Positions 4,979 through 57,800 of a DNA stretch of 64,000 nucleotides are shown one piece after another. Position 1 is the stretch's first letter, and each line of letters opens with the position of its first letter. This DNA comes from Candidatus Goldiibacteriota bacterium HGW-Goldbacteria-1 (GTDB lineage Bacteria; Oederibacteriota; PGYV01). The notes below the pieces were generated by a model, which was given only the letters and a program-made list of their open reading frames with translations, was not told where the DNA came from and made no database searches. The DNA lies in assembly GCA_002839855.1 (NCBI GenBank), contig PGYV01000004.1, forward strand, positions 141,988 to 205,987, given 5' to 3'. A program made the position numbers and the translations under genes.

Positions 4979-5049
4979 GTAGAGACGCATCATGATGCGT
5001 CTAGGGTTTGGTATTTCAAAACCGGAGACGCAATATATTGCGTCTCTAC
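4979..5049. repeat. AGACGC double-palindrome element
   Basis: The element opens with GTAGAGACGCATCATGATGC and closes with the palindrome GAGACGCAATATATTGCGTC followed by TCTAC. The two internal palindromes have different cores (ATCATGAT and AATATATT), while the outer ends GTAGAGACGC and GCGTCTCTAC are complementary. A second full copy is at 55434-55505 and a half copy at 57765-57789. Confidence 0.85.
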
Positions 5050-5080
5050 ATTTAAAAAAAACACCGCCAATAAAAACAAA

Positions 5081-7195: not shown

Positions 7196-7203
7196 TAACG
7201 GCG

Positions 7204-7418
7204 GAGGCTTGGACGCTTAGAGGCTTAGAAGCTTAGAAGCTTGGTTAAAACTAATACCGTAAAAAATCAGGCCGGCAAAAGCACAGAGGGACAGAAGAAG
7301 TGAAAATAAAGCGATTTAAGCTATAAGCAATTAAGCAGAAGCGATAAAATAAACAACATCGAACGCTGAAAAAATATAGGTTTTTCCAAGCATCTAAGCA
7401 TCTAACCATCCAACCATC
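7204..7418. repeat. Octamer inverted arms flanking other repeat modules
   Basis: The left arm (7204-7244) is GGCTTGGACGCTTAGAGGCT and further octamers. The right arm (7386-7418) is CCAAGCATCTAAGCATC and further octamers. Between them lie a GAGGGACAGAAG module (7286-7297) and a module reading TTAAGCTATAAGCAATTAAG (7311-7345) that recurs near 42.8 and 43.4 kb. The 230-bp gap has no gene. Confidence 0.8.
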
Positions 7419-7427
7419 AATTACTTA

Positions 7428-15995: not shown

Positions 15996-16062
15996 CCTTG
16001 AAGTTTTGTATTATGTATAAAAATATATAGCATATTTTGGGTTAAATCAAGCATAAAAACGG

Positions 16063-16265
16063 AGGCTTGTAAGGTTGGATGCTTGGAGGCTTGGATGCTT
16101 TGAGGCTTGGTAAGGCTTGGACGCTTGGAGGCTTTGACGCTTGGAAGCTTGGTTAGTTCGATTTTGCCGAGCATCTAAACATCTAACCGTCCAAGCATCC
16201 AGCTGAGCTTCTAAGCATCAACCAAGCCTCTAAGCTTCTAACCATCTAAGCATCCATCCAAGCAT
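16063..16265. repeat. Octamer inverted-arm array, GGCTTGGA type
   Basis: The left arm (16063-16157) repeats octamers ATGCTTGG, AGGCTTGG, ACGCTTGG and AAGCTTGG. The right arm (16170-16265) repeats CTAAGCAT, CTAACCAT, CCAAGCAT and CCAAGCCT. The arms are reverse complements around a short T-rich centre. This is the largest octamer array in the window and fills the gap of about 350 bp between the M23 peptidase and the citrate synthase-like gene, just upstream of that gene's promoter. Confidence 0.92.
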
Positions 16266-41872: not shown

Positions 41873-42626
41873 TGTTATTCTCCTTTTTCATTTTGTTTTG
41901 TCCTGAAAGCGCGTTCATTAACGCTTCAAGTTTTTTTATGGATTCGGTTGTTTCAAATATTACGGAATAAAAATCAAGTGCTGTTATCACCCCCAGTCCG
42001 GAACAGGCGGCAATCTTTGCCCCTTCATCCGGGTGAAATACCGCCGTTAAAAGGGCGGCTGCCTTTGCGGCTGTGAAAAAAGCGCCTACAATATTTTTTC
42101 CTATCGCGAAATTACCGCTGTACGCCGGAATAAGCGACAGCACCGCCTGATTGACGGGGTCATTGGACATTTCCTGCGCGAATTTTTCCTGAACCCAGAC
42201 CCCGATAGGTTTATTGCCTGTCATATAGTGGTCATAATATCTGGGCATACCCATAAGCTCCCATGTGTTAAAATTTCTAAAACCGGCATTGTCGGCAAGA
42301 AAATCAAACAGGTCCAGCGTATAGGTAAGTTCCGTTATATACCACCCGTTATTTTTTCCGGCTTTTACCACCCTGCTTTCAGACGCTATCTTTCTTTTTG
42401 CCTCTTCATCAAAATTAAACTTAAAATCCAGAAACCTGTCTATTGAATAAACCATTTCTTCCCTTGCGTACTGCAGCGACCTGTTCTGCGCGGATAAAAC
42501 ATCTGTGCCCGGTATTTCCGCAGTACCCCTGGAATTAATTGTATAAATTTTATTTCCGGTTGTAGAAGCGCATCCGCAGAGAACAATTACCGCCGCTGTA
42601 ACCACTGCCAGTTTTATTTTTTTCAT
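41862..42626 (-). CDS. Lipoprotein of unknown function
   Basis: This 254-residue protein has a signal peptide with lipobox LCGC at about residue 20, so it is a predicted lipoprotein. The ATG at 42626 has AAGGAG upstream; a frame extended to 42761 is unlikely. The mature part contains a moderately hydrophobic stretch (FAIGKNIVGAFFTAAKAAALLTAV) about 70 residues before the end, which might insert in a membrane. It overlaps the barrel gene by 11 bp. Confidence 0.75.
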   Translation of the reverse strand: MKKIKLAVVTAAVIVLCGCASTTGNKIYTINSRGTAEIPGTDVLSAQNRSLQYAREEMVYSIDRFLDFKFNFDEEAKRKIASESRVVKAGKNNGWYITELTYTLDLFDFLADNAGFRNFNTWELMGMPRYYDHYMTGNKPIGVWVQEKFAQEMSNDPVNQAVLSLIPAYSGNFAIGKNIVGAFFTAAKAAALLTAVFHPDEGAKIAACSGLGVITALDFYSVIFETTESIKKLEALMNALSGQNKMKKENNNEN

Positions 42627-42761
42627 TTTATTTTCTCCTTTTGGTATTTGTAACACCTGTGTAATAGCAACAAGCGTGCCGCGGCTTTTACCTATATTTT
42701 TAAGGGATTCTAAGGTGCATTTCCGCGCAACGCGTTGCGCGCACGGCAGATATGCGCTCAT

Positions 42762-43599
42762 ATAAAGAATTGCAGCGCAGGAAAACCGAGGGACAGAGGG
42801 ACGGATGATAAAAAATAGCTGTTTAAGCTATAGGCAGATAAGCAGAAGCGAAAGAAAAAATTTTTTATGCTATAGCTTAACTACTTAAAATGCTAAAGTG
42901 CTATGTTTTGTCGTGGTAGACGCGGGTCTTTAGCCCGCGGAAGTTGATTTTGATTTGAATTTTTTTGTCTTGGTAGCCGCACCCTTTAGGGTGCGTTGTT
43001 TAGATTTCGTTATTGCTTATCTGCCTTCGTCTTAATCGCTCGTTTTTTAAATCAACTGCCGCACCCTAAAGGGATGCGCCTACCACTACATATATCTAAG
43101 CCCGGTAAACACGGAGGGACGGAAGGAGAAACAAACATAAAACAAATATCGAGAATTCGAAATTCGAAAATCGGAATAAAACCACAGGGGTTGGGTGTGT
43201 TTTTTCAGTGCGTGCCGCGTAAGCATAGTATGTATGCGGCACGGGCGGTTTAATGCTGCGCCGGCAAATCCGGTTGTGCCGCGGGTTCCCGATTGCCAAT
43301 GAGTGAACACAGTATAGATTTCAAGGTTGTTTGGATACAAACATACCAATTTGCGGCGCGTGCTGAAAAAATACACACAACACCTGGAAGACTGCGGCTG
43401 GGCAGCTGGGAGGAGCGAAAGAACAGCGGTTTAAGCTATAGGCAGATAAGCAGAAGCGGAAAAGACAAATAAAACACGAGGGACAGAGGGTCGGATGCAC
43501 TGAGGGACGGAAGAAAAAACATAAAACAAATATAGAGAATTCGAAATTCGAGAATTGGAAGAAAACCACAGGGGTTATGTGTTTTTTCAAAAGCGGGAT
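42762..43599. repeat. Composite intergenic repeat island
   Basis: This 840-bp gene-free stretch is a mosaic of the repeat families in the window. Modules are GAGGGACA octamers (42788-42806, 43111-43124, 43478-43513), a TTAAGCTATAGGCAGATAAG module (42817-42857, 43423-43460), TGGTAG palindrome elements (42914-42945, 42971-43085), AGCTGGG octamers (43391-43410), and two copies of a block of about 72 bp (43135-43206, 43519-43588). Only about 43210-43390 is non-repetitive, and it holds a hairpin GTGCCGC/GCGGCAC at 43212-43242. No credible gene was found. Confidence 0.85.
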
Positions 43600-49263: not shown

Positions 49264-49690
49264 GTTGCAACTGACAAGTTGCAGGTTACAAGTTACAGCT
49301 AACAGCTGACAAGTTACAGCTAACAGCTGACAAGTTACAGGTTACAAGTTACAAGTGACAAGTTACAGGTTACAACTGACAGCTTACAAGTTGCAGCTGA
49401 CAGCTGACAAGTTACAGGTTACAACTAACAACTTACAACTGAGAACTGACAGCTGTTACCTGTTACTTGTCACTTGTCACTTGTCACCTGTTACCTGTTA
49501 CTTGTCACTTGTCACTTGTCACTTGTCACTTGTCACTTGTCACTTGTCACTTGTCACTTGTAACCTGTAACCTGTAACCTGTAACCTGTAACCTGTAACC
49601 TGTAACCTGTAACCTGTAACCTGTAACCTGTAACAACCTGTAACCTGTAACCTGTAACCTGTAACCTGTAACCTGTAACCTGTAACCTGT
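49264..49690. repeat. Heptamer inverted-arm repeat array 3
   Basis: The left arm (49264-49450) is made of GACAAGT, TACAACT, AACAGCT and TACAGGT type heptamers. After a switch near 49440-49455 the right arm runs in reverse-complement heptamers, with about eight CTTGTCA units and about 18 AACCTGT units, broken once by an extra AAC. It fills the whole gap between the acyl-CoA synthetase and the DUF4139 gene and stops at the latter's stop codon. It is the largest array, and highly regular in its right part. Confidence 0.95.
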
Positions 49691-55433: not shown

Positions 55434-55505
55434 GTAGAGACGCATCATGATGCGTCTCTGATTTTGATTTTAAAAAATACGAGGCGCAATATATTGCGCC
55501 TCTAC
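55434..55505. repeat. AGACGC double-palindrome element, second copy
   Basis: The element starts GTAGAGACGCATCATGATGC and ends with the palindrome GAGGCGCAATATATTGCGCC followed by TCTAC. Its outer ends and the two internal palindromes match the copy at 4979-5049, with paired changes (GAGACGC to GAGGCGC on both sides), suggesting selection for pairing. Confidence 0.85.
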
Positions 55506-55527
55506 GTTATAAAACAAACCGAACAAA

Positions 55528-57663: not shown

Positions 57664-57764
57664 CCCAATTCCCTTTGTTTTGATATTTTATAATTACAAG
57701 GATATGTTAGCATAATTTCTTTAAAAAAGCGGTGAGATTTAGGATTTTGAACAAATACAAAACC

Positions 57765-57789
57765 GAGACGCAATGTATTGCGTCTCTAC
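57765..57789. repeat. AGACGC palindrome, half element
   Basis: GAGACGCAATGTATTGCGTC followed by TCTAC is the right half of the AGACGC element, without the left half. It lies between a secreted protein gene and the possible toxin-antitoxin pair. Confidence 0.8.
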
Positions 57790-57800
57790 GTTAACGTTTT

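Follow-up and report, generated by a model that had tools for sequence, protein, structure and literature searches.

The gene-free island described here lies in a 64,000-nucleotide stretch of DNA (the window) and is best read as a repeat mosaic that is ordinary in kind but unusually rich, and that holds a new, MITE-like element family. With a probability of roughly 0.6, we read it as an intergenic mosaic around a genus-specific, MITE-like element of 205 bp that spread in trans, can fold on one strand, keeps one orientation and was inherited vertically. The element is multicopy, restricted to the genus, nearly constant in length and polar; it has a strand-specific fold and occupies some orthologous sites but not others. 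Bacteria commonly carry small palindromic repeats, and the way in which such repeats spread is known for few of them; near-absolute orientation, a nearly fixed length and a one-strand fold, found together in three congeners, make this a testable case of strand-specific insertion versus selection on transcripts. The mosaic also illustrates how, within a single lineage, repeats of several families accumulate and break into one another.

Layout of the island and its repeat families

The lipoprotein gene probably starts at a candidate ATG ending at 42626, which has AAGGAG upstream and is equivalent to the methionine at which a sister gene begins; the gap of about 840 bp described in an earlier note on this DNA is therefore real but somewhat larger (Table 1). 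No convincing gene was found within it, the mechanical ORFs in the gap reaching at most 96 aa, and a coding core was rejected because no frame is open in all copies of the 205-bp element (best 22 of 41), which agrees with the description of the island as gene-free. All of the modules named in that note are present, and its reading of the island as a mosaic of five or more repeat families stands.

Table 1. Features of the island, in window coordinates.
Feature	Position	Strand	Remarks
Intergenic island (probable limits)	42627–43599	.	Lipoprotein gene (start codon 42624–42626, − strand) on one side; glutamine-amidotransferase-like gene (ends 43600, − strand) on the other
Octamer array (GAGGGACAGAGGGACGGA)	42788–42806	+	Member of a genus-specific array family
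AGCTATAG module: TTAAGCTATAGGCAGATAAGCAGAAGCG, then inverted CTATAGCTTAA (42870–42880)	42823–42880	+	Further copies at L021, L022
GTAG-type REP hairpin 1	42914–42939	+	Family pattern count
GTAG-type REP hairpin 2	42971–42995	+	Pattern match G000:C4:184958
GTAG-type REP hairpin 3	43060–43085	−	Opposed to hairpin 2, BIME-like dimer
Octamer unit and AT-rich GAAATTC-type array	43114–43182	+	Like the flank before 28/41 copies of the 205-bp element
205-bp MITE-like palindromic element	43184–43388	+	Includes the 'unique core' of the earlier note
Terminal stem arms of the 205-bp element	43185–43218 / 43353–43386		
AGCTGGG octamer pair	43397–43410	+	Other such arrays elsewhere
Second TTAAGCTATAGGCAGATAAGCAGAAGCG module	43431–43458	+	86% over 51 nt
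Second octamer array	43478–43513	+	
Repeat of the octamer, the AT-rich flank and the element's left end only	43498–43589	+	Truncated copy; L023

GAGGGAC octamers occur in the island at 42788, 42796, 43114, 43478 and 43502, and TTAAGCTATAGGCAG at 42823 and 43431; no KOPS-like octamer GGGNAGGG was found there. The direct duplicate, previously put at 72 bp, is real but longer, since 43110–43207 and 43498–43589 align over 98 columns at 86.7% identity (E 6e-23; 86 nt ungapped). Its right-hand member carries a truncated element that stops ~10 bp short of the adjacent stop codon, and this copy gives partial support to the idea of a relic of a lost element. The GTGCCGC/GCGGCAC hairpin is present in the core of the complete element. 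The surrounding 43210–43390 had been taken for a unique core, but it has about 27 copies in the genome and its edges are inverted-repeat arms.

The TGGTAG hairpins bear a GTAG tag and have a short-looped stem of ~8 bp, and TGGTAGNCGCACCTTTTAAGGTGCG-type matches numbered 92 exact, with 0 in a reversed control. These units often stand in opposed pairs, as do those at 42971 (+) and 43085 (−) in the island. GTAG REPs are recognized by a GTAG tag beside a stem of 5–13 bp with a short loop (PMC3733652), and judged by such sequence features the TGGTAG hairpins belong to the GTAG-type REPs and form a BIME-like cluster in the island. They share tag, stem, short loop and opposed pairing with the REPs and BIMEs described before (PMC3733652, PMC2817692), but lie here among octamer arrays and other families, and neither of the two Y1_Tnp genes in the organism's own genome is a Y1 transposase gene flanked by GTAG REPs. 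REP-bearing species can be without a cognate REP-flanked Y1 transposase gene (PMC3733652).

Patterns for the GAGGGAC-type octamer arrays gave 134, 193 and 189 matches in the three species of the genus and 0 in 14 other relatives (17 genomes searched). The short tandemly repeated repetitive heptamers of cyanobacteria are likewise degenerate intergenic tandem arrays of 7–8 bp; the arrays here differ from them in that they often lie in inverted, head-to-head pairs as the two arms of a hairpin, in some cases with REPs enclosed. Inverted pairs of GAGGGAC arrays, some enclosing GTAG REPs, were seen at L248–L253 (contigs C3 and C4 of the organism's own genome, G000, and C8, C13 and C21 of the congener G001). 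Degenerate heptamer or octamer arrays also lie head-to-head at 49264–49634, 16055–16260 and 7197–7424 of the window, where they could form very long hairpins, and one head-to-head pair in the window has arms of 179 nt that are 77% complementary. A further small palindrome family, GAGACGCAATATATTGCGTCTCTAC, occurs at 5019–5052, 55475–55508 and 57759–57792.

The modules recur together to different degrees. An AT-rich flank lies directly before 28 of 41 element copies, and an octamer stands within 200 bp on the left of 29 and on the right of 20, a linkage that makes a unit longer than 205 bp possible. Only 6 of the 41 have the AGCTATAG module nearby, so the shared module order that the earlier note had named as the mark of a composite element holds for flank, octamers and element but not for this module. 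We consider it very unlikely that a single composite mobile element with all modules inserted at the island. The co-occurrence of flank, element and left-hand octamers, and the fact that modules occur twice within the island, fit such an insertion, but the scarcity of the AGCTATAG module and the independent occurrence of REPs and octamer arrays at many places largely contradict it, leaving only the AT-rich flank plus element as a plausible unit. On the favoured reading, the island instead grew as small non-autonomous palindromic elements of several families accumulated downstream of a gene.

Copies, descent and fold of the 205-bp element

When the core and its flanks were compared with the organism's own genome (2.86 Mb, 18 contigs) 61 matches were found, ~20 of them spanning most of the core, and the core alone gave 27 matches in that genome and 28 and 27 in the draft assemblies of two congeners. 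Nothing credible was found in 38 other relatives; weak matches in G008 and G011 were examined as possible homologues outside the genus and look like chance. An 18-base motif search of viral contigs returned 46 stretches, none with the element. The copies have a near-constant length of 205–207 bp while their sequence drifts, and an alignment of 39 of them has 208 columns, a mean column identity of 86% and almost no indels. Many copies are truncated or internally deleted, and their spread over the organism's own genome is very uneven, with many in contig C1 and one fragment in C2. Several copies, mainly in the congener G002 (L191–L199), hold a ~67-bp repeat (GTTGGAGCGAGCC...GTTAGGGGAC) in constant orientation, which sometimes replaces part of the element and sometimes is present without loss of element sequence; this repeat has 22 matches in the organism's own genome, some adjoining REPs.

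For many copies the flanking genes correspond between congeners. One or more congeners have the element at the sites orthologous to L008, L018, L021, L024, L027 and the window copy, and it was not found in the congener gap for L006, L010, L011, L013, L014 (a 26-nt fragment only) and L017, several of the compared sites lying at contig ends in one congener. Because some orthologous sites carry the element and others do not, it has been both gained and lost. The filled site L006, for example, corresponds to L168 without the element, with flanks 90–94% identical. The element-free gaps differ throughout in their other contents, so that no clean target-site duplication can be read.

At the window site the copy in the organism's own genome is complete, that in G001 is also complete but has an extra fragment, and that in G002 is truncated; descent from a common ancestor is the simplest reading of these sequences. 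The earlier suggestion of an insertion hotspot agrees weakly with a gap that is occupied in all three species; however, the element at this site is shared and similar mosaics occur genome-wide, so common ancestry explains the occupied gap. Once in place, copies would pass down by vertical inheritance and degrade as they lose internal sequence or take up other repeats.

The element ends in imperfect inverted arms of ~35 nt (in the island copy, 34-nt arms that are 82% complementary), which pair over 31 positions, with 95.7% of the alignment cells of the 39 copies being standard pairs. The covariation score and the percentage paired of this terminal helix were reached by 0 of 500 shuffles and its number of double-change cells by 1 of 500, counts that overstate the evidence because related copies are not independent; in slid controls pairing fell to 37–60%. 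Differences between the arms comprise 141 cells that are G.U on the + strand against 7 that are A.C (G.U on the opposite strand), but four positions inherited by most copies supply most of the G.U cells, so that independent G.U events are far fewer than 141, and as distinct states per pair the comparison is 13 to 7. The island copy folds at −93.7 kcal/mol on the + strand (z −6.6) and at −72.4 on the − strand (z −4.3), and in all 40 copies compared the + strand is the more stable one, also after correction against shuffled versions of each strand. One strand is predicted to form a long terminal stem enclosing smaller hairpins; selection probably keeps that strand foldable, and the folded + strand may matter during movement or as RNA.

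A transcribed structured RNA had also been suggested for the island, and the strand-specific fold and the covariation, both read from sequence, do favour a functional single-stranded form of the element. These two features, the nearly constant length and the AT-rich sequence directly upstream of 28 of the 41 copies would suit a multicopy gene for a structured non-coding RNA on the + strand, the surrounding repeats being incidental or including its promoter. We regard such a gene as unlikely, as no Rfam family came near threshold (two sub-threshold matches only, E ~1–3), promoter-like sites were not above shuffles, no terminator was found at the 3′ end of the island copy, most neighbouring genes lie antisense to the + strand, and many copies are truncated or internally deleted. 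A known structured RNA was rejected, being without Rfam support. The AT-rich flank was rejected as a promoter: a TTGAAA-17-TAGATT arrangement seen by eye in some copies fails across copies, and a scan of the island copy finds nothing.

Orientation and means of spread

With the element set as +, its neighbouring genes, called as longest ORFs so that single cases may be wrong, are oriented (−,−) in 30 cases, (+,−) in 6, (−,+) in 3 and (+,+) in 0. Between genes of the same direction 30 of 30 copies have one orientation, and of 40 copies for which a right-hand gene was called, 37 have the 3′ end of that gene facing them. In 464 kb sampled from the organism's own genome, where one strand often carries >90% of the coding bases, 21 of 21 matches lie opposite the majority coding strand. 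Element orientation tracks the sign of the GC skew, apart from a place with skew close to zero (C1:140000), and near the right end of C7 both reverse. Because coding strand and skew are tightly coupled, replication and transcription are inseparable in these data as the cause of this polarity, which is explained equally well if read-through transcripts are selected for having, or for lacking, a stable hairpin. We suggest that copies are inserted, or kept, in a single orientation with respect to the gene and to the direction of replication, through either strand-specific insertion or selection on read-through transcripts. At ~195–243 kb of G000:C7, GC skew and coding strand change from − to +, and this is possibly a replication origin region.

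Polarity this nearly complete, in a family several of whose copies are shared by two or three species at corresponding loci, might also be expected of polar chromosome-organisation sites, with a DNA-binding or translocating protein reading replichore orientation from the element or the octamer arrays. The very uneven distribution between contigs and the presence or absence of copies between congeners argue against such sites, and the direction of transcription accounts for the polarity equally well, so that we give this explanation very little credence.

Under the favoured reading, in which the mosaic formed around a MITE-like element, the 205-bp element was probably spread by a transposase acting in trans. 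A search with end patterns found no kb-spaced inverted pair of element ends, as an autonomous partner would have, in the three genomes (in G002, among the matches listed). The two Y1_Tnp genes (L031, L032) are bordered not by REPs but by inverted repeats of their own, which differ from the element ends (L031 880–926 and 1950–1994; L032 1349–1373 and 2464–2488), and one of the repeat pairs is self-complementary, with a GGGGTCAG motif. In these flanks both genes resemble the TIR-associated tyrosine transposases, to which repeat families have been tied (PMC3733652), but their repeats show no relation to the 205-bp element's ends.

A Y1 (HUH) transposase moving the element as single-stranded DNA would explain both the hairpin and a replication-linked polarity. 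Transposases of the IS200/IS605 type work on the lagging-strand template and have a replication-strand preference that the polarity resembles (PMC6006769), and the two Y1_Tnp genes, together with the known repeat families of TIR-flanked Y1 transposases, are in keeping with such a mechanism. We nevertheless think it improbable, given the different inverted repeats that flank both genes; moreover, the bias in coding and skew would make the better-folding + strand the template for leading- rather than lagging-strand synthesis, so an IS200/IS605-type model does not fit simply.

The MITE-like character of the element rests on a size within the MITE range (~70–300 bp, without coding capacity), terminal inverted repeats, multiple dispersed copies and presence or absence at orthologous sites, while an autonomous relative with the same ends was not found among the three genomes as searched. 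To our knowledge, many accepted MITE families also have no known autonomous relative. Bacterial MITEs such as ERIC/IRU, Correia/NEMIS, RUP and Bcr1 (PMC2229807) are, like the element, short, non-coding and intergenic, with terminal inverted repeats, many copies and strongly folded strands. The element differs from them in its near-absolute orientation and one-strand (G.U) fold signature; no related insertion sequence was found, no target duplication is readable, and TA stands at the left end of 16, the right end of 28 and both ends of only 10 of 40 copies. A plain MITE moved as double-stranded DNA would not be expected to show strong polarity and G.U asymmetry. We offer, as a tentative and rather doubtful possibility, a genus-specific palindrome of which the single-stranded form of one strand (RNA or DNA) is selected and which is polarised by replichore, through a strand-specific process undescribed for MITE-like elements.

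Contigs C4, C7 and C14 end inside copies of the element, and such ends were considered as a sign of a longer, unassembled element. Long, repetitive, Thr-rich, coding-like sequence makes up several contig ends and a gene resembling those for surface proteins (L073, L075, L078, L084, L087 and the L012 flank).
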